DNA of 64,000 bases, from the NCBI RefSeq assembly GCF_001708965.1, contig NZ_LVJW01000003.1:1302001-1366000 (forward strand), in the 5' to 3' direction. The first letter of the stretch is position 1; each line of letters starts with the position of its first letter. Of this stretch, positions 44,455 through 60,462 are shown in pieces. The notes beneath the pieces are model-generated. The model saw only the letters and a program-made list of their open reading frames with translations, made no database searches and had not been told where the DNA came from. The position numbers and the translations under genes are program-made. The stretch is from Candidatus Thiodiazotropha endoloripes (GTDB lineage Bacteria; Pseudomonadota; Gammaproteobacteria; Chromatiales; Chromatiaceae).

Positions 44455-46620
44455 TCAGAACAGATAGGTATAAGTGAGCATGGCATTTCGAGGTGCGCCA
44501 GCCGAATAGGTTTTATTGCCACTGGTACTTTTCTTCACTTCTGTGGCGTAACGCTTGTCAAACAGGTTTTCCACGTTCAGAGCGAGCGTATGGGAGCCTG
44601 TCTGATAGCTGAGCATCAGATTGGTCAGGAAGTCGTAGCCGTCGTACTTTTCAGTATTGGCATTATCGACGTAATAGCTGCCCCAGCTGTTGCTGCGGAT
44701 AACCGCTTTTATGCCAAGTGGATGGTAGTAACCCAATCCCAGACCATATTGCTGACGTGGAATATAGGGGAGCTGATTGCCCGAACGATCGACAGGTGTT
44801 TGGCTGCGTCCATTGCGTACCAGTTCATCAAAATCTGTGAAGGTATAATCACTGTAAGCAAAACTGCCTTCTAACCAGATGTTGTTCGCAACATCGTAAC
44901 GTCCACTGAGTTCAACACCTTTCTTTAAGGTTTCACCGGCGTTTTGAAACTCTGTTGTGAGATCCTCATTGAGGGTTGAAACAATCTCGTCAGTGACTGT
45001 GGTGCGATAGATTGCCAGGTCGAATGACCACGCCTGCTCACGCCCTTTAAAGCCCACTTCTACGTTTTGTGCAGTGGCCGCATCCAGTTTCGGATTGCTC
45101 TGAATCTCTGACTCGGAAGGCACCTGTCCGGATTGAGCAACCAGGCCATAGACATTGACGCGCTGATCGAGCGCATAGGTCAAACCCAGTTTGGGTGAGA
45201 ATAGATTGAAGGTTTTATCGGTTTTTGTCAGTTCCGGTGTGTCAAAGAAGGTATAGGTCCCACTGCCATAGCTGTATTCACCAAAAGCGGTACTATCGAT
45301 GTCAAAGTTGTTGCGGTCATAACGAAAGCCGAATTCAAGGTTAACTTTTTCAGTCGGTTGCATGGTCTCCTGAATGTAAAAACCATACAGGGTATTGGTG
45401 GCATCCTCCTCTTCAAGCAGATCGCCGGCTCGATCGGAATTGGTGTGTAGAATGGTTGCTGGTCCGGTTGGATTCCAGGCCGGTGGTGGTGCTGTCTCAA
45501 CATCGGCATAGGTGTATTTCTTCGCACCTTCGGTGTTGTCCCGGCGGGCTGTCACACCCGTGACCAGAGTGCTTTCTCCCCACAGCTGATGTTTGTATGT
45601 GATCTCGAGATCTGTGCCGAGAACAGTTGTTCCCGGGTTGTCGTTGATGGCGCCGGTTACCGGGTGGTAGTGATCCCACTGATTGGCGTAGACACGTGGC
45701 TTGAGTGTGAGATTGTCCATCTCCTGTTCATAGCGGGAGTTGAAAAACCAGATTGTGGAATAGCGCCCACTGTGCTGCCAGGGGCTGCTGGTGGTATCTT
45801 TCTGTTCGCCGGTGTCAAGGTAGCGCTCGAACTCTTCATCATCCATGGAACCGGGTAGTTGCAGATCCGCTTCATGGTAACTCAGTTCTGACTCCAAGGT
45901 ACCACCGTTGTCCAACAGATAGCCGTGTTTCAAAGCCAATTGCTTGGATTCGAATTCGTTCCAGTCCCGCCAGTCGTTGTCTGTTTTACGATAGGAAGCA
46001 GTGATCGATGCGGCGTTATAGTCATTGATATCACCAGCCAGGCGGCCATGCAGATTTTGTTGTCCAAATTCACCGGCTCCCAGTTTGACCCGGTTACTGT
46101 CCGTGTCGAACACTGATTTGGAGATGATCTGGATTGTGCCGCCTGCAGAGCCAGCACCAAACAGTGAGCCAGGCCCTTTTGTTATCTCGATGCGTTCGAT
46201 ATCCTGGGTATCGATGAAATCAAACCGGGAAAAGCTGTCGGGGTCTGTCATTGGGACCCCATCCCGGATGACCATGATCTCCCGCACCCCGTAGTTGGCT
46301 TTCTGTCCGGCGCCTCGAATAATCAGGCGGCTGTCGTAGGCAGAATTCTTGGAGTTGATCAGAACGCCGGCGCTCCCTTGAATCGCATCCTTGATATTGA
46401 ACATTTTCTCGCTTTCGATACGTTCCGAATCGATGACATCGATCGATCCGGCAACCTCTTTGGTTTTTCGCTCGATCCTGGAGGCTGTAACACTGATGAC
46501 GTCGAACTCCTCATCCGATGTGCGGTCTTCTGCTTCATCTGCGACAGCGAGAGGTTGGGTGGTAATGGTCAGAAAAGATATGAGTGCAAAGTTGATACTG
46601 TTTTTAGGTAAAGACTTCAT
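44455..46620 (-). CDS. TonB-dependent receptor, metal or siderophore uptake type
   Basis: A 721-residue outer-membrane receptor. The signal peptide is followed by a TonB box-like DVISVTASRIERKTKEVAGSI. The plug domain contains RGAGQKANYGVREIMVIRDGVPM and IERIEITKGPGSLFGAGSAGGTIQI, and the barrel ends at PRNAMLTYTYLF. The layout is that of CirA/FepA-type receptors. It heads an operon with its own ExbBD-TonB, a membrane Fe-S protein and a CcdA/TauE-like protein, and a Fur-like box lies 33-51 bp upstream. Iron or an iron chelate is thus the favoured substrate, though copper is possible. Confidence 0.88.
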   Translation of the reverse strand: MKSLPKNSINFALISFLTITTQPLAVADEAEDRTSDEEFDVISVTASRIERKTKEVAGSIDVIDSERIESEKMFNIKDAIQGSAGVLINSKNSAYDSRLIIRGAGQKANYGVREIMVIRDGVPMTDPDSFSRFDFIDTQDIERIEITKGPGSLFGAGSAGGTIQIISKSVFDTDSNRVKLGAGEFGQQNLHGRLAGDINDYNAASITASYRKTDNDWRDWNEFESKQLALKHGYLLDNGGTLESELSYHEADLQLPGSMDDEEFERYLDTGEQKDTTSSPWQHSGRYSTIWFFNSRYEQEMDNLTLKPRVYANQWDHYHPVTGAINDNPGTTVLGTDLEITYKHQLWGESTLVTGVTARRDNTEGAKKYTYADVETAPPPAWNPTGPATILHTNSDRAGDLLEEEDATNTLYGFYIQETMQPTEKVNLEFGFRYDRNNFDIDSTAFGEYSYGSGTYTFFDTPELTKTDKTFNLFSPKLGLTYALDQRVNVYGLVAQSGQVPSESEIQSNPKLDAATAQNVEVGFKGREQAWSFDLAIYRTTVTDEIVSTLNEDLTTEFQNAGETLKKGVELSGRYDVANNIWLEGSFAYSDYTFTDFDELVRNGRSQTPVDRSGNQLPYIPRQQYGLGLGYYHPLGIKAVIRSNSWGSYYVDNANTEKYDGYDFLTNLMLSYQTGSHTLALNVENLFDKRYATEVKKSTSGNKTYSAGAPRNAMLTYTYLF

Positions 46621-47508: not shown

Positions 47509-47554
47509 AAAAGCACGGTGGTGGTTAGAATGCAGTTCAAACGCCACCACTGTG
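47509..47554 (-). terminator. Hairpin terminator ending the Mrp/Mbx-like operon
   Basis: An 11-bp stem (47514-47524 with 47544-47554, one G-T pair) overlaps the last codons and stop of the ferritin-like gene. On the minus strand it is followed by CTTTTGC. The short T-run makes it a moderate terminator candidate. Confidence 0.5.
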
Positions 47555-48040
47555 AATGGTTTCGTAATAGACCTTTTCCAGTTGGTTCTTATGTTCCGTC
47601 TCTTCATTGGCAAGGAACTGAAACAGCTCCTTGATTGGACCATCCTCGGTGCTCTCGGCAAGGGCATGGTACTGTTCCATGGCCGCATGTTCACGACCTA
47701 ATGCATATTGCAGTACCGACTGGTCGTCGGGTCTGTCACCCAGTTCGGGAAGATGGATGGCATCGGAAAACTTTTTATCACTTGCCGGGATCTCCACCAG
47801 GGTTTGAACCTGCAGCTCAAGGCCGGGACGGTTTTTCAGTTCGTTAAACAGATCAAAATGGCGTTGCTCCTCTTCCGCCAGCTCCTCCACCAGATAGCGG
47901 ATCTGTTTACTGACTTTTGGAATCAGATTCGTGTAGAAATCCCGGGCAGTACGTTCGAACTCAATTGCAACTTCAAGAATCTCAGCCAGGCTTTTTTTCG
48001 ATTTCAGTCTGTCGTAACTGCTGCTATGACTTTCAGACAT
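47537..48040 (-). CDS. Ferritin-like (rubrerythrin-type) di-iron protein
   Basis: A 167-residue four-helix protein with the rubrerythrin spacing of iron ligands: EFERTARDFY, EEEQRHFDLF, GREHAAMEQYHAL and ANEETEHKNQLE. No rubredoxin domain follows. It starts 19 bp after the stop of the NuoI-GltD fusion gene, so it is probably the last gene of the respiratory operon. Rubrerythrins reduce peroxide with electrons from NAD(P)H-linked flavoproteins; here the fusion flavoprotein is a candidate partner (inference). Confidence 0.88.
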   Translation of the reverse strand: MSESHSSSYDRLKSKKSLAEILEVAIEFERTARDFYTNLIPKVSKQIRYLVEELAEEEQRHFDLFNELKNRPGLELQVQTLVEIPASDKKFSDAIHLPELGDRPDDQSVLQYALGREHAAMEQYHALAESTEDGPIKELFQFLANEETEHKNQLEKVYYETIHSGGV

Positions 48041-48059
48041 GGCGATGACACTCCTACTG

Positions 48060-49916
48060 TTATTGCTGATTCAACCATTCATCGATGCTGGCCGCCACAC
48101 GGTGACCATCTGCGATCGCATGAACCACATCCGGCCCGTTGACGCAGTCACCGGCGGCCCACAGCCAGTCGACCGCAGTTCGTCCCTGTTCATCGATACT
48201 GAGTCGGCCCCTTTGCCACTCAAGGGCTTCCGTCAGCTCGTCACCAAGCAGATTGTTATCCGACATCTGGCCGATGGCTTCAATTACCATGTCTGCCGCG
48301 TGTATCTGCTCATCCTGCTCATCATATTCCGGTGCGAAGCGACCTTGCTCATCGAATATGGAACGGACCTTCCAGGTCTTCAGTCCGACCAGCTTGTTGT
48401 TTTTGATGATGCACGCCTGGGGACCTCTTGCATCATAGATCTCGATGCCTTCCTCCAGACACTCTTTGATCTCCACCGGGTCAGCCAGAAAGTGAGTCAT
48501 ATCTTCCAGTGCTGTGACCGTGACCTGTACTTTGCCAAGCTGTTGTTGCTGTTGCCGGGCGAGGGTTCTGGCAATGTCCATCGCCACATTACCACCACCA
48601 ATGACCACAGCCCTGTGTGGAATCTCATAGTCTTCATCATCGGTGGTTCTACGCAGTAGATCGATCGCTTTACGGACCTGTTTGTGGTCGGCGCCGGGAA
48701 CCCGGGTGGAGCGGCCAAGATGCAGACCGATGGCTAACACCACCGCATCAAAATCCGCTTCCAGCTGGGTCATCGTGATATCCTTGCCAACCTGAATACC
48801 GGTCTGGATCTTCACTCCCATGGAGGTAATCACATCGATGTCCCGGTCGAGCATGTCGTAGGGCAGGCGGTATTCAGGAATACCGTAACGGGGCATACCA
48901 CCCGCTTCCTTACGGGCTTCGAATACCGTCACCTGATGACCTTTGCGTATCAGGTCATAGGCGGCAGTGAGACCAGCCGGTCCGGCACCGATGATGGCGA
49001 TCTGTTTGCCGCTCAGGTAGTCCGCTTTACCTTCCGCAGCAATCTGTTTGATCCGTTCATGATCCACCGAATCCATAGCGTAGCGTTTCAGCCAGCGGAT
49101 GGAGACCGGTTCACCCCGTCGGCCGATCGAACAGGCATCCTCGCAACGATGGGTGCAGACCCGGCCACAGACATGGGAGAAGGGATTGCTTTGATAGATC
49201 CAGCGTACCGCCTCTTCCAGGTTGCCCTGCCAGATCGAGCGGATATACTCGGGAGCATCCATATGGGTGGGGCAGGCATCGTGGCACATGCCGCACTGAA
49301 CGCAGCGTGAGGCTTCGATCACCGCCTGCTGATCGGTATAGCCGGCAACGATCTCATTGAAGTTATCGATTCGCTCCTCGGCTTCCAGCTCGGCCATCGG
49401 CTGACGGTTCAGGTCGAGCAGGTCGGAGTCACTGGTCTTCTGCCAACCCTCACCATAATACTCGCCATGGATACCGGTTTCGTTCGGTAGAATGAAGTAG
49501 CTGTCGATCTCCTCCTGGGTACAGATATGAACATATTCACGGGAGAGGGAGATGGCACTGGTCGGACAGATGTCCACACACAGGGCGCACCAGCAGCAAC
49601 GACCATAATCGATCGCCGGTCGCAGATTGCGTATCCCGTTGATCGGATCTTCCGGCAGATGGGGAACCTTGACCATGGTGATGGCTGCGTTGTCACACAC
49701 TTTCTGGCAGGAACTGCAACCGATGCACTTTTCATGATCGTTGAGATGAAAGCCACGGTAGTTGTCTGCCGCGGGGCGGGGTTCCAGCGGGACTGTGACC
49801 GGTTTGCGCAAGAAAAACTGCAACGCCTTGAGTGGGCTGAGGATTGAACCTGCCTCCTCATGCTCGATGGTCACATTCTGTTTGCTCAGTTTTGCATTAT
49901 CAATCGGTTTGGACAT
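48060..49916 (-). CDS. NuoI-like ferredoxin fused to GltD/NfnB-like flavoprotein
   Basis: A 618-residue fusion. Residues about 20-135 are a NuoI-like domain with two [4Fe-4S] motifs (CIGCSSCQKVC, CCWCALCVDIC). A linker follows (about 135-200), then the GltD-type Fer4_20 domain (CVQCGMCHDACP, then C-rich SHVCGRVCTHRCEDAC) and a FAD/NAD(P)-binding disulfide-reductase fold (IAIIGAGPAGLTAAYDL; VVIGGGNVAMDIARTL; WLWAAGDCVNGPDVVHAIADGHRVA). GltD and NfnB take electrons from NADPH. Fused to NuoI and set beside NuoBCD-like genes, this should be the electron-input unit of the complex. Nothing comparable is found in canonical complex I, where NuoEFG do this. Confidence 0.9.
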   Translation of the reverse strand: MSKPIDNAKLSKQNVTIEHEEAGSILSPLKALQFFLRKPVTVPLEPRPAADNYRGFHLNDHEKCIGCSSCQKVCDNAAITMVKVPHLPEDPINGIRNLRPAIDYGRCCWCALCVDICPTSAISLSREYVHICTQEEIDSYFILPNETGIHGEYYGEGWQKTSDSDLLDLNRQPMAELEAEERIDNFNEIVAGYTDQQAVIEASRCVQCGMCHDACPTHMDAPEYIRSIWQGNLEEAVRWIYQSNPFSHVCGRVCTHRCEDACSIGRRGEPVSIRWLKRYAMDSVDHERIKQIAAEGKADYLSGKQIAIIGAGPAGLTAAYDLIRKGHQVTVFEARKEAGGMPRYGIPEYRLPYDMLDRDIDVITSMGVKIQTGIQVGKDITMTQLEADFDAVVLAIGLHLGRSTRVPGADHKQVRKAIDLLRRTTDDEDYEIPHRAVVIGGGNVAMDIARTLARQQQQQLGKVQVTVTALEDMTHFLADPVEIKECLEEGIEIYDARGPQACIIKNNKLVGLKTWKVRSIFDEQGRFAPEYDEQDEQIHAADMVIEAIGQMSDNNLLGDELTEALEWQRGRLSIDEQGRTAVDWLWAAGDCVNGPDVVHAIADGHRVAASIDEWLNQQ

Positions 49917-49935
49917 CAGCGATTACCCATAGATC

Positions 49936-51078
49936 TCAACGGTCAACTTCCGGCGGACAGGCATCCAGGGAGAACATGGTCTGGGCAATGTCCTCGATGC
50001 GTGATCCGACGGACATCTTCTCCAGCACCTGCACTGCATGCATCGACGATGGCCCCCGTACATGGACCCGATAGGGCTTGGGGCCACCGTTGGAGACCAC
50101 GTAGTAGCAGAGTTCCCCTTTGGATGATTCAACCCGGGTGTAGGTCTCCCCGGCGGGAACATTCCAGGCCAGTGGATTGGGGATCGGTGCGCGTATCGGA
50201 CCGTGGATGTCAGGCAGAATCTCCACCACCTGGCGCAGAATGCGGATACTCTCCATCAACTCTTTGCGACGCACCAGGGTACGTGCCCAGGCATCACCGC
50301 TCTCTTCAACCGGGATATCGAACTCAAGTTGATCGTAGACCAGATAGGGATCATCCCGGCGTACGTCGAAGGCCAGTCCGGTGGCCCGCAGATTGGGTCC
50401 GGTGACACCCCATTCCAGGGCCTGTTCCCGAGACATCACACCGGTGCCCTTGGCCCGCTTGACGAACACCTGATTCTTAAAAAAGAGGTTGTCGTAGTCG
50501 GGTAGTCGAGACTCGATGTAGTCGAGGGTTTCTGTCAAGCGTCGCAGAAAACCATCAGGCAGTTCCCGACGCACTCCACCGGGAATGTTGTAGATGCTGT
50601 AGACCCGGCCGCCGGTAAACTCCTCAAACAGATCGAGCAACAGATCCCGGTCAGCCACACCCCAATACATGGTGCTGTACATACCGGTGGTTGCCGCATG
50701 ACCGCCAAAGGTGAACAGATGAGCCGCGATGCGTGACAGTTCCAGCTGCATCACCCGCAACCACTGAGCCCGTAGCGGGACCTTGAGTCCACACAGCTCT
50801 TCAACCGCCATCGAGTAACAGAGTTCCATCGGTGAAGGGTCAGGCACGCAGATACGAGGCACCAGAGCAATATTCTGAATCCACAGCCGCTGCTCCATCA
50901 GTTTTTCAAAGCCCCGGTGCAGATAACCGCCATCCGCCTTGGCCTCCAGCACGATATCGCCATGCAGCTTTACCTTCAGTGCATAGTTGCCTTCAATACC
51001 GGGGTGGTTCGGACCGAAATTGAGTTCATACTCATTACTCGGCGGCTGGCGCTGGGCTTCGTAATTCTCAGGTCTCAT
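49936..51078 (-). CDS. nuoD: NuoD/MbxL-like large subunit lacking NiFe ligands
   Basis: A 380-residue homologue of the 49-kDa subunit of complex I and of group-4 hydrogenase large subunits (NFGPNHPGIEGNYALKVKLHGD, GYLHRGFEKLMEQR, SRIAAHLFTFGGHAATTGM). The N-terminal hydrogenase RxCGxC motif is replaced by RICVPDPSPMELC. The C-terminal DPCxxC is reduced to LDACPPEVDR, so no NiFe site can form. It should act in quinone reduction or in coupling electron flow to the membrane arm. It lies 19 bp before the fusion gene. Confidence 0.93.
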   Translation of the reverse strand: MRPENYEAQRQPPSNEYELNFGPNHPGIEGNYALKVKLHGDIVLEAKADGGYLHRGFEKLMEQRLWIQNIALVPRICVPDPSPMELCYSMAVEELCGLKVPLRAQWLRVMQLELSRIAAHLFTFGGHAATTGMYSTMYWGVADRDLLLDLFEEFTGGRVYSIYNIPGGVRRELPDGFLRRLTETLDYIESRLPDYDNLFFKNQVFVKRAKGTGVMSREQALEWGVTGPNLRATGLAFDVRRDDPYLVYDQLEFDIPVEESGDAWARTLVRRKELMESIRILRQVVEILPDIHGPIRAPIPNPLAWNVPAGETYTRVESSKGELCYYVVSNGGPKPYRVHVRGPSSMHAVQVLEKMSVGSRIEDIAQTMFSLDACPPEVDR

Positions 51079-51153
51079 GTCGTTTCGCTTATTTTAAAAA
51101 TTTGGGGCCGCATTTGCATTTATTCGCGTTCATTTACGGACTGATAAAACGCT

Positions 51154-51723
51154 TCACTTCTTCTTTTGACTGAAGCGCTGCTCTTCCGGCGGGATGATCA
51201 CACCACCACCTTCGGCGACCAGCTCCTGTAACCACTCCGGGTTGTACTCCTGCCAGCTCAGGTGCTCGTTGATATAGGCTTCGCTGTCGAACTCTTTGCG
51301 CATCGGTGGCGGACCGTCCCATTCGGTAAGGATGAACTTCTCCATATTGGGACTGCCTTCGAAGTGGATGCCATACATCTCGTGGATATCCCGTTCGAAA
51401 AACCCAGCAGGCTGATAGAGGTCATATACCGAGAGATAGACCCCAGGTTCACGGGCAATGCGAATATGGGCCGATACCAGGGAGTGACTCTCATAGGACC
51501 AGACGTGGTAGACCAGTTCAAACTCGTCATCATCGATCCAGTCGACACAACTGATCGCAGAGAGGTGTATATAACCGGCTCGTCCCTGCAGCAGCTCCAG
51601 CAGTGCGGGCAGGGCATCCGCCGGTACATCGACTCTTACCCGGCGACTGCTTTTACGACGAACTTCGATGCCTTCGATCTCCTTCAAGAGATTGTCCAGC
51701 CAATGGGCGACTTCCTGGCTCAT
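51154..51723 (-). CDS. nuoC: NuoC/MbxK-like subunit
   Basis: A 189-residue homologue of the 30-kDa subunit of complex I. The family core HIRIAREPGVYLSVYDLYQPAGFFERDIHEMYGIHFEGSPN is present at about residues 83-127, followed by LTEWDGPPPMRKEF. It structures the peripheral arm with NuoB and NuoD. It overlaps nuoB by ATGA and is 75 bp upstream of nuoD. Confidence 0.93.
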   Translation of the reverse strand: MSQEVAHWLDNLLKEIEGIEVRRKSSRRVRVDVPADALPALLELLQGRAGYIHLSAISCVDWIDDDEFELVYHVWSYESHSLVSAHIRIAREPGVYLSVYDLYQPAGFFERDIHEMYGIHFEGSPNMEKFILTEWDGPPPMRKEFDSEAYINEHLSWQEYNPEWLQELVAEGGGVIIPPEEQRFSQKKK

Positions 51724-52433
51724 TCAACTGACTCCTTGATGTTGTGGCCGAGGCGCATATCAAGGGCCTCCAGGGGTTTCTGATGCTGCTCCAGCAGGCG
51801 GGTGTGATCGCCCAGGGTGCCTTCACCCATCAACTCATAGTGTTTCGCTTCGGTGATGATGTCAGTGGGTGTCTGCCAATCCTCACCGAACAGTTTCTGT
51901 TGATTGCCCAGGTAGTAGTCATAGTTGCGGTAGTAGTCCTGCCAACTGTCGGCTTCACCACTGTTGATACGATCCATCAGTTTCTGCAGACCGCTGATTA
52001 CCGCCTCGGGTCTTGGCATGCAACCGGCGATATAGAGGTCGACCGGCATATATTCATCGAGTTTTTTAGCGGTTGCATAGCTCTGCCAGTACATGCCGCC
52101 ATTGACTGTGCAGGAGCAGATCCCCACCACATATTTCGGTGAACCCATCTGCTCATAGGTGAGGATCACCCGTTTCAGGGTTTTGATCGAGACATAGCCG
52201 GTTATCAATAGAATATCGGCCTGTCTCGGAGAGACCATGGGTTGAATGCCAAGCCGCTCCATATCGAAACGGGAGGTCATCGCCGGCGGCAGTTCGATTG
52301 CCCCGCAGCCGGTGCAGTAATGGAGAATGAACAGGGAACGTGAGCGGCAGAAGCGCACCAAATCATCGAACACCCGGGCCAGGGGGTTGCCCTTTTTCTC
52401 TTCGATTACCGGTATCTTTTGTAACGTGCTCAT
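51720..52433 (-). CDS. nuoB: NuoB/MbxJ-like small subunit with hydrogenase-type CxxCxxE
   Basis: A 237-residue Fe-S subunit. The N2-cluster ligands are CTGCGAIE (Cys40 and Cys43), GICSCTVNGG and GCMPRPE. Canonical NuoB has a tandem CC before AIE; CxxC is the pattern of NiFe-hydrogenase and Mbh/Mbx small subunits, which argues for the second group. ATG 52433 (MSTLQK) is preferred to ATG 52439 or the TTG at 52445, without a strong ribosome site to decide. A 133-bp gap separates it from nuoH. Confidence 0.9.
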   Translation of the reverse strand: MSTLQKIPVIEEKKGNPLARVFDDLVRFCRSRSLFILHYCTGCGAIELPPAMTSRFDMERLGIQPMVSPRQADILLITGYVSIKTLKRVILTYEQMGSPKYVVGICSCTVNGGMYWQSYATAKKLDEYMPVDLYIAGCMPRPEAVISGLQKLMDRINSGEADSWQDYYRNYDYYLGNQQKLFGEDWQTPTDIITEAKHYELMGEGTLGDHTRLLEQHQKPLEALDMRLGHNIKESVE

Positions 52434-52578
52434 AACCATCACCAAAGTCGTTGTGTTAACTTGCCTGTGGTGTTTTCACTACAGGTTCGTCAGTCCGGCA
52501 GCGCCGGTATTCATTTGCCTTGAGATACAATCACTGTTTTACAAGGACTCGCCAAACACACTCCCTGTCGGCGTAAAT

Positions 52579-53475
52579 TCACATCACGAAAGCCAAGCCG
52601 ATCAGTCCCAGCATCACCGGCCATTTCCACATCAGACGCAACAGATCCTCGGTGCGATAACGGGGAAACAGATAGGCGATACTCACCGGTATGGCCAGCA
52701 CCAGAAAACTCTTGATCAGAAAATCGAACCAGGTGGTACCACCGCCGAGGAACAGACTCACATAGAGCACCGAGGTGGTGTAGAGCTGGAAGCACTGCAT
52801 GACAAACAAGCCACCCAGGTACTTACCACTCATCTCTACCATCGGTCCCGTGGCAATCTCAGCCGGGGCGATATAGATCTCGAAAGGCTGTTTACCCAGT
52901 GAAGCATGCATGGCGATCAGACCGGCAATGGCCAGCAGTGGCATCTCAACCACACCCCAGGTTGCAAAACCACCAGCCTGTTGCGTGGCGATGATCTCCA
53001 CCAGATTGGTGGTGCCGGCGGCATAGGCAACGCCGAAGATCACGATGACCAATGGAATATCGTAGGCCAGCATGGCTGTCAGTGCGCGGGCAATGCCGAT
53101 CGAGCCATTGGGATTGGCGCACTGACCGACACCCAGCGCCAGGCCGAGGGAGGGAATCATCATCAGATAGAGCAGGGTGATCAGTCCCCCCTTTTCCGCG
53201 ATGCCGTTCATGCCGGGTACCGGTAGCAGGGTCTCTGCGGCAATATAGCCGCCCATGGCCATGACAATACCGATGTCATGAATCAGACCGTGGGAGACCT
53301 GAGTGCGTTTGCCGTGAAGCTTGACGATGTCGTAGAGTGGCTGAAAGAAAGGTGGTCCGACTCGACGCTGAATCTTTGCCGCGATACGCCGCATCATCAG
53401 CACCATCATCATGCCGACGATAAAGGCAACCAGCGGCATCAGGGTCAGCTCAATGAAAAGTTCGATCGGTGCCAT
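52579..53475 (-). CDS. nuoH: NuoH/MbxM-like membrane subunit
   Basis: A 298-residue membrane protein with about eight helices. It holds RRVGPPFFQPLYDIVKLHGKRT near the N-terminus and EIYIAPAEIATGPMVEMSGKYLG later, both signature loops of NuoH/HyfC proteins that connect the peripheral arm with the ion-pumping arm. Its ATG shares one base with the stop of the antiporter-like gene upstream (TAATG). Confidence 0.94.
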   Translation of the reverse strand: MAPIELFIELTLMPLVAFIVGMMMVLMMRRIAAKIQRRVGPPFFQPLYDIVKLHGKRTQVSHGLIHDIGIVMAMGGYIAAETLLPVPGMNGIAEKGGLITLLYLMMIPSLGLALGVGQCANPNGSIGIARALTAMLAYDIPLVIVIFGVAYAAGTTNLVEIIATQQAGGFATWGVVEMPLLAIAGLIAMHASLGKQPFEIYIAPAEIATGPMVEMSGKYLGGLFVMQCFQLYTTSVLYVSLFLGGGTTWFDFLIKSFLVLAIPVSIAYLFPRYRTEDLLRLMWKWPVMLGLIGLAFVM

Positions 53476-55352
53476 TAGAAAACCACCCAGGCAATTATGA
53501 AGAGTGCCGTACTTAACAGATAGAATTCAGAGTTGGCACGACGGTAGATACCCTGCATGCCAAGGGAGAGAAACTCGACCAGCGAGGTAATGCTGTTTTC
53601 CAGCCATTGAAAACTGCCACGATACCAGCCACGGATCAGATGCATCAGGCCGGAGTAGAAGTTGTCACTGTATTGGTAACGCACATCGGCGCTGAGAAAG
53701 TGACCGCCTGCGTAGTTGTCGAGCTGATGAACCCGCTTACTCGGCCCGGCGGAGTAGAAGATCACAGCACCGATACCGAAGCCGGCAAACAGCACGCCGA
53801 TCACCCAGATCATATCGAGACTGCCGCTGGAGGATTCGATGCCACCCAGGGTGATCTCGGGACCAGTGAGGCCAATCGTCTGCAGTGCGGCGGTAACCCA
53901 GGTCAGCGGGATACCCGGCAACAGTCCGGTGGTGAAGATCGTGCCGGCCAGTATCAGCATCGGAATCATCATGCTCCAGGGGGCTTCGCGAATATGTTCA
54001 TGTTCCACTCTCAGTTGGCCGAGAAACATATTGTGAATCAGCTTATAGACCGACAGGATGGTGCCCAGCGTACCGATGATGGTGCCGAGGAAAAGCAGTG
54101 GCATACCATCTTCCAGCAGTGAGCGATAGACCAGCCATTTGGAGACAAAACCGTTCATTGGGGGCAGGCCCGCCAGCCCGATGATGCCGGTCAGCAGCAC
54201 CAGAAAGGAGAGTGGCATCCGTGCTACCAGGCCACCCAGCTTGTTCAGATCAGCAGTACCTGTGCGATGCATGACGGCAAACACCGCCATCAACAGCGCC
54301 GCCTGACAGGCCGCATAGTTGAGGACATGAAGCAGACCACCGGCAGCCCCCAGGGAGTTGGCGGTGACCAGGCCGAGCAGCATGTAGCCACCCTGACCGA
54401 TGCCATGCCAGGCCAGCAGATATCGGGCGTCATTCTGTTTCAGGGCGGTATAGGTGGGAAAGATAATGGTAAACACCGCAATCCAGGCCAGCAGGTCCCG
54501 GGCATCGATGAGTGTGAAGGGAATCTTGAGACTGTCGATGTTGACGATGCCGAACAGCTTCACCAATACCAGCAGAATGGCAAACAGGCCCATACGGGAA
54601 GAGATGGCGCCGAGAAAGGCGCTGCCGGGTCCCGGGGTCTCCGCATAGGCGGCCGCCTGCCAGAGATGAAAGGGGAGTAATCCCATCTTGATGCCGAAGC
54701 CACTGCCGAACAGCAATACCAGCATCCAAAGCTGGCCGGTGCTCATTTTTTCTACCGCTATCAATATGGCTTCATACTGCAGTGAACCGGCCGCCGCATA
54801 AACCAGTGCAATGCCACCGAAGATCGTCATCCCGCCGACAACGGCATAGGTGATGTAACGCATGGCTGCCTTGGTTGCAACGCCACCGGCAACGGCCATC
54901 AGCAGGAAGCCTGCCCAACTGACCAGTTCCCAGCCGATGAAGAGGGAGAGCAGATCGCCGCTGGCAAGCAGGATCAACATGGTGAAGACATTTAACGCCA
55001 TGGCCAGATGAAACAGCCAGACATTGCCTCCCTGCTGTTTGAATTTTCGTTCCCACTCACCGCAGGAGAACCAACTGGTCAGCAGTGCTGCCACCAGGGT
55101 GATCAATGCAAAGAACCAGCTCAGGGCATCGAAGCGCCAGGAGAGATCCTGTCCCATCACCGAGAGACTCAACTCGGAAGCGATGGGATCCCCGCCGTAA
55201 CCCAGTGCGGCCATCTTGATCAGGACCAGCAGTTGTCCACCATAGAGAATGGTGACCATCCAGCCTACCGCCAGACCGCGACCCAGGATCAGGGCAACCA
55301 GCACCGTGGCAGCCGAAAAGATCAAAAGCTCATCCAACAGGCTGAAAATCAC
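53475..55352 (-). CDS. NuoL/MrpA-type antiporter-like subunit
   Basis: A 625-residue proton/sodium-antiporter-like subunit with about 14-16 helices. GDLLSLFIGWELVSWAGFLLMAVAGG carries the conserved TM5 Glu, GIKMGLLPFHLWQAAAYAETPGPGSAFLGAISSRMG the broken-helix lysine region, and RYLLAWHGIGQGGYMLLGL the second. A C-terminal extension (about 515-625) has extra helices. With the MrpD-like gene next to it, the complex has two antiporter subunits, as in Mbx/Mbs. It overlaps the MrpD-like gene by ATGA. Confidence 0.93.
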   Translation of the reverse strand: MIFSLLDELLIFSAATVLVALILGRGLAVGWMVTILYGGQLLVLIKMAALGYGGDPIASELSLSVMGQDLSWRFDALSWFFALITLVAALLTSWFSCGEWERKFKQQGGNVWLFHLAMALNVFTMLILLASGDLLSLFIGWELVSWAGFLLMAVAGGVATKAAMRYITYAVVGGMTIFGGIALVYAAAGSLQYEAILIAVEKMSTGQLWMLVLLFGSGFGIKMGLLPFHLWQAAAYAETPGPGSAFLGAISSRMGLFAILLVLVKLFGIVNIDSLKIPFTLIDARDLLAWIAVFTIIFPTYTALKQNDARYLLAWHGIGQGGYMLLGLVTANSLGAAGGLLHVLNYAACQAALLMAVFAVMHRTGTADLNKLGGLVARMPLSFLVLLTGIIGLAGLPPMNGFVSKWLVYRSLLEDGMPLLFLGTIIGTLGTILSVYKLIHNMFLGQLRVEHEHIREAPWSMMIPMLILAGTIFTTGLLPGIPLTWVTAALQTIGLTGPEITLGGIESSSGSLDMIWVIGVLFAGFGIGAVIFYSAGPSKRVHQLDNYAGGHFLSADVRYQYSDNFYSGLMHLIRGWYRGSFQWLENSITSLVEFLSLGMQGIYRRANSEFYLLSTALFIIAWVVF

Positions 55353-56821
55353 AATGGGCCTCCGGGCGTTGCCGGTATCACGGTTTGTATATAGAGCTCG
55401 GCATTTTTTGCCTCGGCCGCAACGGCTTGCAGTCCATCACCGATCGGGGCGATCAGAATTGTTGCCGACAGCAGAGCGACGCCGAACAGTGAAGCCGTAG
55501 CCAGTGAGAGGCCGGGCAAATGTACGTGCTCAGGCTGTTCGGTTGTGGTCTCGGCTGAACTGTAGAGTTTCGTCACGATACGGAACAGATAACTTGTCTC
55601 GATTACCGTGGCAAAAAGAAATACCAGCAGACCGATCAGATAGAGTGGTTCACTCTGGGCTGCCAGCTCGGTGATCAGGGTGAATTTGGCCCAGAAACCG
55701 GGTAGTGGGGGAACACCAACCAGGGAGAGGGCGAACAGGGTAAACAGTGCTGCCCCGACAGGTGACTTCTTGGCAATCCCGGTCAACCGGTCGAGTGATC
55801 CGCCCCAGCCGTCAGCCAGCATGAAGAGCCCGGTTTTGATCACCAGATGGTGAAGCGAGAGAGCCAGCAGGGCTAACAGCCCCCGCTCATCCGGTAAGGA
55901 TAGGGCGATAAAAATAATGCCCAGCTGACCGATCGAGGAGAAGCCAAGCATACGTCGCATATCCTTGGCGCGCCAGGCTGCAAATTCACCGCTGATGACA
56001 CCCAGTATGCCGAGAATGAGAACAATCTGTATCGCTTCCGGCTGGTCAAATATCAGCACCAGCAGTCGCAGAATGATCAGCAGTGCCAGTTTCGACAGCA
56101 GTCCGGCAAGGAAGCCGGAGAGCCGGCTTGAGGCGGTAGCATAGATCTCCGGAACCCAGGCGTTGACCGGAAACAGCTCCGCTTTGACACCGATACCGAT
56201 CAGGATCAGCAGGTAGGCGGTCAATCCCAGTCGATTGTTTAACAGCTCCGGTGCCAGTTGTGCCAGATGGGCCAGGTTGAGGGTGCCGGTCTGACTGTAG
56301 ATCAGTGCGATACCGAGCAGAGTCAACACGGAACCGATACCGCTCAATATCAGATACCGGAAGGTTGCGGCGTAGGCTGCCGAGGTGCTGGATGCAACTA
56401 CCAGCCCGAAGGTGGCCACAGCAGCCAGTTCATAAAAGACATACAGATTGAACAGATCACCGGAGAGTGCCAGTCCGGTCGAGGCGGCAACCAGTAGCAG
56501 CATCAGGGCCTGTCGTCTGGCCGTATCCTGATTCAATGCATAGGGCCAGCAGATCAAGCCAAGCAGCTGCACCGCGAAGGCAAACAACAGGGCCAGAGAG
56601 TCCAGATAGAGATTGATGCCGTATGGGGCATCGAATCCGCCAATCACAATCGACAGTGGCAGGTTGATGTCGCTGAACCAGAGATTTCCCAACAACCAAC
56701 AGCCGTAACCTAGAATGATTGGTCCGAGCCATAAACCGATGGCCTGGGAGAGACGCATCATCACAGGCAGTAAGAAGGCGCCAAGCAGAGGCAGGGCGAT
56801 GGTCAATGCCAGGTTATTCAT
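55349..56821 (-). CDS. mrpD: MrpD/NuoN-like antiporter subunit
   Basis: A 490-residue membrane protein with about 14 helices. GDLFNLYVFYELAAVATFGLV holds the TM5 Glu. GVKAELFPVNAWVPEIYATASSRLSGFLAG holds the TM7-8 region with its lysine. MRRMLGFSSIGQLGIIFIAL and HHLVIKTGLFMLADG follow. This matches MrpD and the NuoM/N group. It overlaps neighbours on both sides by ATGA and would carry H+ (or Na+) through the membrane arm. Confidence 0.93.
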   Translation of the reverse strand: MNNLALTIALPLLGAFLLPVMMRLSQAIGLWLGPIILGYGCWLLGNLWFSDINLPLSIVIGGFDAPYGINLYLDSLALLFAFAVQLLGLICWPYALNQDTARRQALMLLLVAASTGLALSGDLFNLYVFYELAAVATFGLVVASSTSAAYAATFRYLILSGIGSVLTLLGIALIYSQTGTLNLAHLAQLAPELLNNRLGLTAYLLILIGIGVKAELFPVNAWVPEIYATASSRLSGFLAGLLSKLALLIILRLLVLIFDQPEAIQIVLILGILGVISGEFAAWRAKDMRRMLGFSSIGQLGIIFIALSLPDERGLLALLALSLHHLVIKTGLFMLADGWGGSLDRLTGIAKKSPVGAALFTLFALSLVGVPPLPGFWAKFTLITELAAQSEPLYLIGLLVFLFATVIETSYLFRIVTKLYSSAETTTEQPEHVHLPGLSLATASLFGVALLSATILIAPIGDGLQAVAAEAKNAELYIQTVIPATPGGPL

Positions 56822-57297
56822 GCATCGCCTCCTCGGGATTCAGCGGTATGAGCCGGAAGGGGTGACAGGGGACGCTCACCGAGTGGTTCATCCTGACTGA
56901 TGTCCCTGCGGATTCCTGCACTGGCGGCTATTTCAGCATCCATTTTTTCTGCCACTTCACGACGTTTCAGGTTGCCATAGCGCTGGCGGATACGAATCAA
57001 TATGCTGATCGCCAGTGCCTGAATGCCGACGCCAATTACGATTGCGGTCAGCACCATGGCCTGGGGAACCGGATCGACCATCGCCGGTTGTTCGGCTCGC
57101 TGCATCAGGATCGGCGCCACCGCATCCCAGCGATAGCCGGAGAGTACCAGCATCAGATTGGCCCCCGCTTCGGCAATCACCAGCGCAAGCACCATGCGGA
57201 ACAGGTGGCTGCTGAGCACCACACCGGCAAGGCCGATAGTCACCAGCCCCAGTGCTGTGACATAGAGTATCAGTTCAAGTGTCACACCCGGGATCAT
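56818..57297 (-). CDS. mrpC: MrpC/NuoK-like subunit
   Basis: A 159-residue protein: three membrane helices with SSHLFRMVLALVIAEAGANLMLV (the conserved Glu in helix two) and PVPQAMVLTAIVIGVGIQALAISILIRIRQRYG, followed by a charged tail of about 45 residues that is longer than typical NuoK. It overlaps neighbours by ATGA on both sides. Confidence 0.93.
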   Translation of the reverse strand: MIPGVTLELILYVTALGLVTIGLAGVVLSSHLFRMVLALVIAEAGANLMLVLSGYRWDAVAPILMQRAEQPAMVDPVPQAMVLTAIVIGVGIQALAISILIRIRQRYGNLKRREVAEKMDAEIAASAGIRRDISQDEPLGERPLSPLPAHTAESRGGDA

Positions 57298-57980
57298 TGT
57301 TCAGACTCCGTATGTGCAAGGTTGGAGAGCAGGCTTGCCAACTCGGCACCAACTTTCAAACCCACGGCGATATAGAGCAGTGGCAGGGTCCCGGCGGAGA
57401 TCAGCGTGCCAAGGGTATCCTGATTGAGCATCGGTTGCAGAAATGCCTGGCCCTCCGCCAGGGCGGCAAGTCCGATGAGAATAAAGCTGGCACCGGCAAA
57501 GGCTTCGATGACACTCAGGATGGAGTGGTGCAGGCGCGCCCCGGGCCGGGCCAACAGAGGCAGGAAAAAGGCTGCGGCAAGAATAACACCGCCCTGGAAT
57601 CCGCCACCCGGTGTCAGATGGCCATGAAAGATGATGTAGAAACCGATCGTCAGCAGAAAAGGAAAGATCAAGGCGCCACCATGAAAGAGCACGAAACCAC
57701 CTTTGCGCTGAGTGCCCGTGGTGGTATGTCGGCGACCCAGCACCAGTCCGGCAGCCGATGCGGCGGCAAACAGGATGGCAAGCTCACCGAGCGTATCGAT
57801 ACCCCGGTAGCCCAGCACCACTGAGGTGACAATATTGGCGGCGCCGATCTCCTGAGGAGAGGCGGACTGTATGGCTTCGCCGATGCGCATTGGCGGACTA
57901 CCGAAATCGATGCCGCTGGTAATCGCCAGCAGCATGAAACCCAGGCCGCCGGCAAACAACAGGCCGGTGAGTTTACGCAT
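57294..57980 (-). CDS. mrpB: MbhE-like and MrpB-like fused subunit
   Basis: A 228-residue membrane protein. The first about 85 residues (up to GRRHTTTG) carry AANIVTSVVLGYRGIDTLGELAILFAAA, typical of the MbhE/MrpA C-terminal subdomain. The rest (PFLLTIGFYIIFHGHLTPGGGFQGGVILAAAFFL) is MrpB. In Mbh-type operons these are separate genes (MbhE and MbhF). It overlaps the DUF4040-type gene by 8 bp and mrpC by ATGA. Confidence 0.88.
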   Translation of the reverse strand: MRKLTGLLFAGGLGFMLLAITSGIDFGSPPMRIGEAIQSASPQEIGAANIVTSVVLGYRGIDTLGELAILFAAASAAGLVLGRRHTTTGTQRKGGFVLFHGGALIFPFLLTIGFYIIFHGHLTPGGGFQGGVILAAAFFLPLLARPGARLHHSILSVIEAFAGASFILIGLAALAEGQAFLQPMLNQDTLGTLISAGTLPLLYIAVGLKVGAELASLLSNLAHTESEQ

Positions 57981-58284
57981 CTTCTTTCCCCCTGGTTGAA
58001 GCGCTCAGCAGATTGCTGTTGTCATTTCCGCTGTCGATCTGCCACAAGCCCAGGCGTCGCAGCGCCAAAGCCAGGATCAAACTGCTCAGACCGGCACCGA
58101 CAGCGGCTTCGGTCATTGCCACATCCGGTGCCCGCATCAGGGCAAACAGCAGCGCCAAACCGAGCGACACCACGGATGCGGCAGCTACCGCAGCGAGATG
58201 GTTTTTGACCACCAGTGCCAACACCGCACTGCTTAACATCATGATCCCCAGGATCAGGGCGATCCAAAGTTCTACTTCACTCAT
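57973..58284 (-). CDS. MbhD-like DUF4040 subunit
   Basis: A 103-residue protein with three helices, corresponding to a piece of the MrpA C-terminus (MSSAVLALVVKNHLAAVAAASVVSLGLALLFALMRAPDVAMTEAAVGAGLSSLILALALRRLG); the APDVAMTEAAVG loop is the MbhD/MrpA signature. I place the start at 58284 by ATGA overlap with mrpG; the longer open frame to 58425 lies inside mrpG. Confidence 0.9.
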   Translation of the reverse strand: MSEVELWIALILGIMMLSSAVLALVVKNHLAAVAAASVVSLGLALLFALMRAPDVAMTEAAVGAGLSSLILALALRRLGLWQIDSGNDNSNLLSASTRGKEDA

Positions 58285-58598
58285 CGGTCGGCCTCTCCTG
58301 TATGGCTGACGGTGGCTCTGCTCCAGGGTTTTACCCCGGCCTTCAGCAGTGCCCGGGCAATGGTGGAAGAGCCGAGTGGATTGGTAATCAGAATCAGCAC
58401 GCCGATCACCAACAGCTTCGACCACCAGGCAGGGTAGAGCAGAGCGATGCCGATCAATAGGCAGAGCGAGCCAAGGGTGACCGCCTTGGTGCCTGCCTGG
58501 ATACGGTTATAGACATCGGGCATACGGATCAGTCCAATGGCACCGAACAGGGTGAAGGCAGCACCGATAACAAGAAACAGGTCGGCAATCAGTCTCAT
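58281..58598 (-). CDS. mrpG: MrpG-like subunit
   Basis: A 105-residue MnhG/MrpG subunit with three helices (AAFTLFGAIGLIRMPDVYNRIQAGTKAVTLGSLCLLIGIAL). The signature is RMPDVYNRIQAGTKA. Its ATG shares one base with the mrpF stop (TGATG). Confidence 0.93.
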   Translation of the reverse strand: MRLIADLFLVIGAAFTLFGAIGLIRMPDVYNRIQAGTKAVTLGSLCLLIGIALLYPAWWSKLLVIGVLILITNPLGSSTIARALLKAGVKPWSRATVSHTGEADR

Positions 58599-58861
58599 CA
58601 GCCGTTCCCCTCAATCGTACGGGCAATGGCGACAACACCGACAAATGCCAATGTGCCATAGATCAGAGCCACATCCAGATAGAGCGGGCTGCCCAGCAGG
58701 GCGGCGAGGATCACCAGTCCCGATGTCGTGATCACCGCCAGGGTATCGGCGGCTACCACCCGGTCCGGGGCTGTGGGGCCCAGGATTAGGCGCAACAGAC
58801 TGAGTAGTACCGCCGCACCCAACAAGCCCAGTGCCACGATCTCCAATAGGGTTAATGTCAT
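58598..58861 (-). CDS. mrpF: MrpF-like subunit
   Basis: An 87-residue MnhF/MrpF subunit with three helices and the RLILGPTAPDRVVAADTL signature. It overlaps mrpE by ATGA and mrpG by one base. Confidence 0.93.
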   Translation of the reverse strand: MTLTLLEIVALGLLGAAVLLSLLRLILGPTAPDRVVAADTLAVITTSGLVILAALLGSPLYLDVALIYGTLAFVGVVAIARTIEGNG

Positions 58862-59385
58862 AACACGAAGCCTTTCAGATGTTGTTCAAATTTGCTGGTG
58901 ATGGCCTGGGTGGTGGAGGCCAGATCACTCCCCGGGGGAGAGTCGACCCAATGCACCAACAGTACCTGATCCTGTACATCGACAGTCAGGGTGCCGGGGG
59001 TCAGGGTAATGGTGTTGGCCAGAATCAGCCGGCCGAGTGGTGATTTGAGTTTGGTTTCCACCTCAACCACGGCTGGTTGCAAAGGCAGTGAAGGACTCAG
59101 CACGCGCCGGGCCATATCGAGATTGGCTTGAACAAGCGCCACGATGAATGTGCCGAGGTAGCGTAACAAAGGAAGCAGGGCAGTCGGTGATATGATCAGC
59201 CCGGTCAGGATGCTTAGGTGAGGTCGACTTGCCAGAGTGACAATCAGAGCGACCACCACTCCGGCAGCCATCTCCGCTGTGTCCAGATTACCGACCAACA
59301 ACATCCAGAGTGCAAACACAAGCAGGTAGAGAAACAGTCCGTGGACAATACCGGGTTCAGGTTGTTGTATGGACTTCGTCGTCAT
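58858..59385 (-). CDS. mrpE: MrpE-like subunit, first gene of the operon
   Basis: A 175-residue MnhE/MrpE subunit: two or three N-terminal helices, then a cytoplasmic domain with LANTITLTPGTLTVDV, the MrpE signature. ATG 59385 is preferred to the GTG at 59397 because an AGGTG ribosome site lies nine bases before the ATG and covers the GTG. It opens the 14-gene operon; the 111-bp stretch between it and the alpha-E gene should contain the promoter. Confidence 0.93.
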   Translation of the reverse strand: MTTKSIQQPEPGIVHGLFLYLLVFALWMLLVGNLDTAEMAAGVVVALIVTLASRPHLSILTGLIISPTALLPLLRYLGTFIVALVQANLDMARRVLSPSLPLQPAVVEVETKLKSPLGRLILANTITLTPGTLTVDVQDQVLLVHWVDSPPGSDLASTTQAITSKFEQHLKGFVL

Positions 59386-59496: not shown

Positions 59497-60441
59497 TTAT
59501 GCTGCGGACATCAGAGCAGGTGGGAAATAGGCTTTTGAAATCGCTTCATGCAGGGTGCCAAAATCGATCTGTAAATCGTCAATAAACTCATGCAGCTCAT
59601 TGTTATCCATCTTATCCGTCAACATCTCTGTCAGGCGGGTATCGATCTTTTTCAGTACTTTTAACGGTGTTCTGTTTTTCGGCAGACGGGAGAGATTGAA
59701 ACGGATGTTTTCCGTGCAATAACTTATTGAACGGGGAAAACCCTGTGTTTTAAACAGGAACTGTAGAACGTCCTTACGATTGATTCTGACCTGCATATGT
59801 TGTCGATACATCTGATAAGCACTGAGTGATTTCAACATACTCATCCATTGAATGTCTTCAAATGGCGCCAGTTCAGGTGCCTCTTCCGGGAGTGGATTTT
59901 CGGGTCGTACATCGATGATACGTGTTGTCATATCGGCACGTTCCAGTTTTCGTCCCAAATTGAGAAAGCGGTAGGCCGTGTCGTGATTCATACTGCCGGC
60001 CAGTAGCCCGGTCATCAACTGTGAGCCAGCAATGATATGTTCCAGGTAAGTTTGTCGCCCCTGGCGGGAAAAGCTGCTCTGTTTACGCTCCAGGGCAGTC
60101 TGGTAATAACTGTTGATCGACTCCCAGGCTTCCCGCGGCAATATCTCGCGTATGGTGCGGGCATTCTCTCGCAATGCGCAGAGAGTACTGATGATGGAGC
60201 TGGAATTGGATTCATCGTTGATCAAAAAATTCGCCACCCGGCGCTCGGTAAACTCGGGATGACGTGCCAGATAGGAGTCGTAACAGCCCAGCAGGTTGAT
60301 CAGTGCATCCCAGCCTGGGGCAACCTTGGGCGGCAGATCCAGCATCAGATTGGTGTTGACGGTGATCAGACGCGCGGTATTTTCAGCCCGTTCCTGATAA
60401 CGTCCTATCCAGTATATGGTTTGTGCAACTCGGGATAGCAT
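59497..60441 (-). CDS. Alpha-E domain protein (DUF403)
   Basis: A 314-residue all-helical protein with MLSRVAQTIYWIGRYQERAENTARLITVNTNLMLDLP at the start, characteristic of alpha-E proteins. These occur with a circularly permuted ATP-grasp enzyme and a transglutaminase-like protein, as here, and are thought to assist peptide ligation. The activity has not been established. It follows the ATP-grasp gene by 21 bp. Confidence 0.93.
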   Translation of the reverse strand: MLSRVAQTIYWIGRYQERAENTARLITVNTNLMLDLPPKVAPGWDALINLLGCYDSYLARHPEFTERRVANFLINDESNSSSIISTLCALRENARTIREILPREAWESINSYYQTALERKQSSFSRQGRQTYLEHIIAGSQLMTGLLAGSMNHDTAYRFLNLGRKLERADMTTRIIDVRPENPLPEEAPELAPFEDIQWMSMLKSLSAYQMYRQHMQVRINRKDVLQFLFKTQGFPRSISYCTENIRFNLSRLPKNRTPLKVLKKIDTRLTEMLTDKMDNNELHEFIDDLQIDFGTLHEAISKAYFPPALMSAA

Positions 60442-60462
60442 TGTTTACTCCTCAGATAGGCC

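Follow-up and report, generated by a model that had tools for sequence, protein, structure and literature searches.

A bacterial operon of the membrane-bound sulfane-sulfur reductase type with a predicted NADH entry in Candidatus Thiodiazotropha endoloripes

The window analysed here is a stretch of 64,000 nt from Candidatus Thiodiazotropha endoloripes (contig NZ_LVJW01000003.1, referred to as C3, positions 1,302,001 to 1,366,000; genome size 4.46 Mb). At 47537-59385 (window coordinates) it carries an operon of 14 minus-strand genes that we assign to the class of the membrane-bound sulfane-sulfur reductase (MBS), with a NuoI::NfnB/GltD fusion protein. The genes follow the order mrpE, mrpF, mrpG, mbhD, mbhE+mrpB, mrpC, mrpD, nuoL-like, nuoH, nuoB, nuoC, nuoD, nuoI-gltD and a gene for a predicted diiron protein. 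Nine junctions are overlaps of 1-8 bp (4, 1, 4, 8, 4, 4, 4, 1 and 4 bp) and four are gaps (133, 75, 19 and 19 bp). A preliminary description, made from the sequence of the window, had listed 14 same-strand genes in this order with tight junctions; all were found on the minus strand, and the subunit names it had given were borne out by Pfam and NCBIfam profile searches.

The first gene, mrpE (MbsA-type, 58858-59385; PF01899, 124.6 bits), encodes 175 aa; its start was checked (ATG at 59385, in a reading frame open to 59397). It is followed by mrpF (MbsB-type, 58598-58861; PF04066), mrpG (MbsC-type, 58281-58598; PF03334), an mbhD-like gene (MbsD-type, 57973-58284; PF13244) and a single mbhE+mrpB gene (MbsE-type, 57294-57980; PF04039), in which the mbhE part is a weak match to PF20501 (21.8 bits, Pfam cut-off 27) and which aligns as a whole to MbsE. 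Then come mrpC (MbsG-type, 56818-57297; PF00420), two antiporter-like subunits matching PF00361, namely MrpD (MbsH-type, 55349-56821) and a NuoL-like protein (MbsH'-type, 53475-55352), and the membrane anchor NuoH (MbsM-type, 52579-53475; PF00146). The remaining genes are nuoB for the proximal-cluster subunit (MbsJ-type, 51720-52445; PF01058), with an uncertain start (TTG at 52445), nuoC (MbsK-type, 51154-51723; PF00329), nuoD for the large subunit (MbsL-type, 49936-51078; PF00346), the fusion gene (48060-49916) and, last, the gene of a rubrerythrin/ferritin-like diiron protein (47537-48040; PF02915).

Eight Mrp/Nuo-type subunits were compared with PDB chains (leaving out MrpE, MrpF, MrpC and NuoC), and for all eight the best chain was from 6U8Y, the MBS of Pyrococcus furiosus: 6u8y_C for MrpG (75 bits), 6u8y_D for the MbhD-like protein (49 bits), 6u8y_E for MbhE+MrpB (146 bits), 6u8y_H for MrpD (215 bits), 6u8y_X for residues 41-620 of the NuoL-like protein (165 bits), 6u8y_M for NuoH (182 bits), 6u8y_J for NuoB (232 bits) and 6u8y_L for NuoD (400 bits). 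NuoD, 51% identical to MbsL of P. furiosus, scored 266 bits with complex I, 130 with the membrane-bound hydrogenase (Mbh) and 96 with formate hydrogenlyase (FHL), and NuoB 126 bits with complex I-type chains and 105 with Mbh. The fusion of MbhE and MbhF into one subunit sets MBS apart from Mbh (PMC8415708). The complex here agrees with MBS/MBX in this mark, having MbhE+MrpB as a single subunit, and likewise in its Mrp-type membrane arm with two antiporter-like subunits. The placement in the Mbx/Mbs class, with an Mrp module, two antiporter-like subunits and no NiFe site, had been proposed before and is upheld by the PDB matches, the profiles and the residues discussed below.

Phylogenetic trees were built from 12 (NuoD) and 9 (NuoB) chosen rows of the clade, with three complex I references each. 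In the NuoD tree, the window protein, its relatives and MbsL group together, apart from the three complex I rows and HycE/HyfG (99/96, with long-branch warnings). The NuoB proteins of the window clade form a group of their own (100/99), not inside the complex I rows; MbsJ, complex I and a divergent clade (see below) branch around it in no resolved order, with long-branch warnings and bootstrap values that did not settle. Neither homologue thus falls inside ordinary complex I, NuoD lying outside at 99/96 and NuoB in a separate clade whose deep order stays unresolved. The core NuoBCDHI and the antiporter-type subunits are shared with complex I and with the group 4 [NiFe]-hydrogenases (Mbh, FHL), but compared to the former the window operon lacks the quinone residues and NuoEFG, and compared to the latter its NuoD keeps two of the four NiFe cysteines; PDB scores are lower in both cases. 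Ordinary complex I was rejected on the NuoD tree and on the absence of the quinone His/Tyr and of the tandem NuoB cysteines, a NiFe hydrogenase on the two missing NiFe cysteines. The operon encodes neither of the two, in line with the early claim of a complex distinct from complex I and hydrogenase 4, which tree, residues and PDB scores support.

For the residue and locus analyses, genome contigs were scanned for relatives of the fusion protein, which yielded 461 stretches, and the best 80 were taken. Rows shorter than 85% of the query were dropped, leaving 75 loci for NuoD, 66 for NuoB, 76 for the fusion and 73 for the diiron protein, to which the window was added; two odd loci (L059 and L108, see below) were kept where their proteins passed this length filter. 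In the case of P. furiosus MbsL, two of the four NiFe cysteines are lost, C85 and C385 are kept, and the quinone residues H38 and Y87 are absent (PMC7684303). NuoD follows this pattern: the positions of C85 and C385 are Cys in 76 of 76 rows, the H38 position is Glu and the Y87 position Val in all of them, and the other two NiFe cysteines are absent from the window protein, as judged from its alignment with MbsL and hydrogenase rows. The NuoD of complex I in the same genome has kept both the quinone His and the Tyr. The statement that the large subunit lacks both NiFe motifs is therefore to be refined, as the first cysteine of each pair is kept (C77 and C374) and the second is missing.

The proximal cluster of MBS is held by MbsJ C28, C93 and C123, C25 being too distant, and its open iron has been proposed as the site of chemistry (PMC7684303). 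Each of the 67 NuoB rows has Cys at all four corresponding positions and keeps the short CTGC loop; the loop aligns without gaps to MbsJ, whereas a longer stretch is found at this place in HycG and HyfI, the small subunits of hydrogenases. The motif, earlier read as CxxCxxE, is in fact CxxCxxxE (CTGCGAIE). These residues also bear on whether a quinone could be the acceptor in the cavity, which would make the complex an ion-pumping NADH:quinone oxidoreductase. Such an activity would suit hosts that presumably respire, and NuoD passes the NuoD equivalog NF004739 (446 bits, cut-off 360), as NuoB passes NF005012 and TIGR01957. We nevertheless regard it as unlikely: Glu and Val at the H38 and Y87 positions are found throughout although complex I of the same genome has both quinone residues, the NuoB loop reads CTGC or GTGC where complex I has a tandem CC, and MBS is the nearest solved relative. 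The acceptor site is predicted to be of the S-S type rather than the quinone type.

A divergent clade of six loci (L114-L117, L119 and L120), four of them from proteobacteria of other orders and two from genomes of this order, has all 14 genes as well; in L120, mrpG and mbhD have changed places. Its NuoB proteins have a GTGC loop, having lost the first loop cysteine in all six cases while keeping the three cluster-ligand cysteines; in NuoD, the C385 position is Tyr and the H38 position Thr in 6/6, and C85 is kept in 5/6. The MBS mutants C25A and C85A/C385A are active (PMC7684303). The divergent proteins have thus lost residues that are dispensable in MBS mutants and kept the three ligands, which points to the cluster as the reaction centre rather than to a NiFe or quinone site; by this comparison the clade would be the best sign of such a role.

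The NuoI::GltD fusion had been proposed as the site of electron entry, and both its family and the PDB matches to its two halves agree with this. The protein of 618 aa matches NF010590 (PRK13984, "putative oxidoreductase") over nearly its full length (824 bits, below the cut-off of 946). Its best PDB chains overall belong to the GltD half (9bov 266, 9n5u 240, 8oh5 236 and NfnB 5jca 223 bits), and among NuoI-type chains MbsN comes first with 78 bits, ahead of Thermus (50) and Mbh (45). Seventeen cysteines are conserved in 77 of 77 rows; they would suffice for two [4Fe-4S] clusters of the NuoI type and two of the NfnB type, and the FAD and nucleotide fingerprints are intact. The NuoI half also contains cysteines additional to the eight that usually bind its clusters, namely a tandem pair at 107-108 (77/77 rows) and Cys132 (76/77). 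For the structures, 28 fusion rows and 23 rows of the diiron protein were used. In the structural model of the fusion (mean pLDDT 75), the flavoprotein half is confident and matches NfnB 5jca_L in Foldseek (TM 0.86 by target and 0.67 by query length), in agreement with the assignment of this half; the NuoI half and the linker are poorly defined. In one relative (G011:C57:6344-8126), the fusion is broken up into two neighbouring reading frames, either by gene decay or through a sequencing error.

Y310-R311-R312 of NfnB bind the phosphate of NADP, and DsrL-1 proteins without this YRR motif are adapted to, or prefer, NAD(H) (PMC7596348). The window fusion has A-L-E in place of YRR. Among 77 rows, the first position is always Ala, the second Leu (67), Ile (5), Met (4) or Val (1) and the third Glu (69), Asp (5) or Gln (3), with Arg at the third position listed in none of these. 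NADH is therefore the predicted cofactor: a nicotinamide donor, suggested before as NAD(P)H, is retained, narrowed to NADH. The divergent rows also have LE, except for L120 with YRR. This locus (genome G507, C1:360000-379000) is a second operon copy in its genome and combines the YRR fusion with the mrpG/mbhD swap and a divergent diiron gene (31% identity). The fusion family thus seems able to switch its cofactor.

At the fourth-ligand position of the FAD-side cluster, bifurcating NfnB has Glu, whereas StnC, a flavoprotein that does not bifurcate, has Lys170 (PMC10482914). The window fusion has Lys277 at this position, invariant in 28 rows, and no NfnA-like gene was found among the 14 genes of the operon in the Pfam and NCBIfam searches; both make bifurcation unlikely. 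NfnAB-type bifurcation was rejected on these grounds. They likewise speak against ferredoxin as the true partner, i.e. a low-potential ferredoxin that the complex would make or use in support of N2 fixation or biosynthetic reactions, perhaps through flavin-based bifurcation. In favour of this partner one could cite that NfnB bifurcates in NfnAB (PMC10482914) and that the NuoI half is itself ferredoxin-like. As this half is covalently attached, there is no evident site for a free ferredoxin, and within the order nifH is not tied to the fusion (35/82 carriers and 58/128 other genomes), which gives no support to a link with nitrogen fixation. We consider a ferredoxin partner quite improbable.

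The fusion shares its fold, the FAD and NAD(P) fingerprints and the cluster domain with NfnB, DsrL and StnC; DsrL-1A likewise lacks YRR, and StnC likewise has the Lys. It differs from them in being joined to NuoI and in having its gene in the operon of a membrane complex, with no NfnA, whereas DsrL is a soluble partner of rDsrAB. NfnI reduces polysulfide with NADPH (PMC5861303), and by analogy some sulfur reduction may occur at the flavoprotein itself.

The diiron gene stands at the end of the operon in all 70 loci with at least 700 nt downstream. In 81 rows, conservation of the putative diiron ligands E29, E58, H61, E117, E147 and H150 is 97% or higher. The model is all-helical (mean pLDDT 72), and Foldseek gave no match at E 0.001 or better (best 1vjx, E 0.0046). 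Five of the six divergent loci share 64-74% identity in this protein with the window clade (L120 31%), and the respiratory subunits are less similar between the two clades. Its likely role is to remove peroxide or O2 and thereby to protect the open cluster; alternatively, it may serve iron supply.

The full set of 14 genes is found in 44 of the 48 loci with at least 9.9 kb upstream, and in the four violations of the order the MrpD query matches only the paralogous NuoL gene (24-26% identity). This order is conserved far beyond chance. No conserved flanking partner was found, the commonest neighbour cluster (PAS-sensor-like by eye) occurring in six of 28 chosen loci at varying distances; the 14 genes are hence the unit. 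Two odd loci deviate from it. L108 (4678-12326) has NuoC, NuoD, the fusion and the diiron gene without NuoB or membrane arm, preceded by open reading frames with CxxCH (cytochrome-like), and is either a reduced form or a rearranged contig of a metagenome-assembled genome (MAG); L059 has MbsK/L/N-type genes and the diiron gene, with unrelated genes before. In the window, the operon is flanked on the same strand by 314-aa and 481-aa genes resembling an alpha-E and ATP-grasp pair upstream (59497-61908, judged by eye without family search) and by a TonB-type receptor downstream (44455-46620). Promoter and terminator scans gave no signal above shuffle level.

The closest named relatives of the fusion are found in Candidatus Thiodiazotropha and other lucinid-symbiont assemblies, with 97-99% identity over the N-terminal half in the first five loci. 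Among the best 80, sulfur bacteria make up most of the named hosts (Thiodiazotropha, Sedimenticola, Thiolapillus, Thiocapsa, Lamprocystis, Thiohalocapsa, Parasulfuritortus, Thiobacillus, Parabeggiatoa and Escarpia symbionts), next to many MAGs; some hosts are labelled Gallionellaceae or Lysobacterales. The designation as a gammaproteobacterial version holds for the host but is too narrow for the family, as carriers also occur outside this class. The fusion is present in 20 of 22 genomes of the genus and 82 of 210 of the order. No plasmid record with the fusion was found at E 1e-100, and Thermotoga maritima was the only one of 14 control genomes to match the family at 1e-150.

In a phylum sample of 398 genomes, six carry the fusion (E 1e-150) and 53 dsrA, and all six carriers have dsrA (Fisher P 4e-6, or 3e-5 without the genome of the window). 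These six are spread over five families, so relatedness explains the link only in part. The genome of the window has two dsrA-type genes (G000:C3:627256-628458 and G000:C3:2284471-2285673), as do several other members of the genus. The S-S chemistry could also take place on a protein or thiol carrier, e.g. DsrC trisulfide or a glutathione or CoA persulfide, instead of inorganic polysulfide. The phylum-level link to dsrA would fit such a substrate, as does the activity of MBS on dimethyl trisulfide, an organic model substrate, but the MBS cavity is a buried hydrophobic chamber that a protein would hardly reach (PMC7684303), and eight of the 82 carriers in the order have no dsrA match. To us, a carrier substrate appears improbable.

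With residue names from the MBS paper and positions read by eye from printed alignments, most of the MBS ion-path residues are kept. This holds for MbsC P83 and MbsD E58, for MbsH' E128, K217, H336 and K399 (K248 is Arg), for MbsH E138, K250 and K393, and for MbsM E203 and E211 (D196 is Glu). From these conserved residues, the complex may be predicted to pump Na+ or H+. All Mrp-type subunits being present, one could also think of a mainly redox-regulated Na+/H+ antiporter serving salt or pH adaptation, and the string 'MrpEFGBBCDD' of the Solemya velum symbiont has indeed been annotated as an antiporter (PMC4287430). We give this reading very little credence: cluster ligands and FAD and NAD fingerprints are near-invariant in 77 rows and would be needless for an antiporter, and a second MrpE homologue is encoded elsewhere in the genome (G000:C3:299906-300337), where a separate Mrp antiporter is thus probably also present. 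A stand-alone Mrp antiporter was rejected because of the conserved redox cofactor sites.

On balance we lean towards a bacterial MBS-type complex that would act as a reversible, ion-translocating NADH:sulfane-sulfur oxidoreductase, with polysulfide or other S-S compounds as substrates. In its favour are the MBS chains as best PDB matches, the MBS-type residues of NuoD and NuoB, the residues lost in the divergent clade, A-L-E in place of YRR, Lys277, the tie to dsrA in the phylum sample and the response of T. maritima mbxA to S0 (see below). According to this proposal, electrons of NADH would enter or leave at the FAD of the NfnB-like half and pass through the four [4Fe-4S] clusters of the fusion protein (two of the NfnB type and two of the NuoI type) to the three-cysteine-held proximal cluster in NuoB, whose free iron would make or break the S-S bond in the NuoB/NuoD/NuoH cavity. 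Loops and the charged axis would couple this redox reaction to the two antiporter-type subunits and the Mrp Na+/H+ module. In anoxia, stored S0 or polysulfide could serve as electron sink; during CO2 fixation, electrons of sulfide or short polysulfide could be passed to NAD+, paid for by the ion-motive force.

The standard potential of S0/HS- is -270 mV and that of NADH -320 mV. NADH and polysulfide being so close in potential, the enzyme should be reversible. It would run forward in anoxia, with stored sulfur taking up the electrons, and backward at high sulfide and high ion-motive force. For two electrons from NADH to S0/HS- we computed ~10 kJ/mol under standard conditions and ~19-27 kJ/mol with sulfide at 1 mM, the value varying with the potential taken for NADH; the latter would suffice to move one to two ions against 160 mV. 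Several points weigh against our proposal. The standard driving force with an NADH donor is small compared with the 41 kJ/mol for ferredoxin in MBS (PMC7684303). In the ion path, the MbsH E219 position is Lys and the H330 position is a residue other than His, and the positions of MbsM E104 and E193 are Met and Gln. The window clade keeps the first loop cysteine of NuoB, so that three-cysteine ligation is assumed for it by analogy. Residues 1-27 and 35-56 of the NuoI half and the linker (125-167) are poorly modelled, and the NuoD and NuoB trees both carry the long-branch warnings mentioned. Finally, dsrA does not discriminate within the order (74/82 carriers and 112/128 others, with four unlisted negatives taken as non-carriers), and some of the carriers without it have fairly complete genomes (G023 98%, G611 97% and G476 94%).

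In comparison with P. furiosus MBS (PDB 6U8Y), the window operon has the same 13 subunit types, two antiporter-like subunits, the fused MbhE and MbhF and the residue pattern of NuoD and NuoB. MBS has a stand-alone, ferredoxin-accepting MbsN, however, whereas here NuoI is fused to the NfnB/GltD flavoprotein with NADH as predicted donor; furthermore, a diiron gene is added and the hosts are mesophilic and sulfur-oxidising. By its NuoI fusion the window complex is a variant and not a classical MBS. The MBX of T. maritima is a 13-subunit homologue of MBS whose mbxA is upregulated 4.36-fold with S0 and for which a ferredoxin donor has been assumed (PMC9431562). The genome of T. maritima carries the fusion family above the cut-off, presumably inside the mbx operon (TM1217); we know of no diiron gene for this MBX. 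The fusion family (NF010590/PRK13984) is thus known, also from T. maritima, and the window operon would encode an NADH-wired bacterial version of MBS. Hydrogenase-related Ehr complexes with Mrp subunits have been described, and this fusion is not among the features given in the available text (PMC6349859). Judged by its label, the 'MrpEFGBBCDD' string of the S. velum symbiont looks like the membrane arm of the same complex (PMC4287430). We found no description of the operon in sulfur oxidisers in the literature searched, which was covered in part and is no proof of absence.

How stored sulfur is used under anoxia and how NADH is obtained cheaply from sulfide are old questions that, to our knowledge, have lacked a clear membrane enzyme. 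The conserved MBS-type complex, predicted to be NADH-wired, is a named candidate for both in sulfur-storing symbionts and in purple or colourless sulfur bacteria. In Thiodiazotropha, sulfur is stored in globules and the rDsr pathway is in use (PMC11171427). It is possible, if doubtful, that sulfur-oxidising autotrophs use the complex mainly in the backward direction, with an influx of ions driving electrons from sulfide or short polysulfide directly to NAD+ and bypassing the quinone pool, and with an S0-respiring mode in anoxia. If true, this backward mode would supply NADH for CO2 fixation at far lower cost than complex I in reverse. The natural variants, i.e. the three-cysteine NuoB and the YRR paralogue, bear on the mechanism proposed for MBS and on the path from Mrp to complex I.

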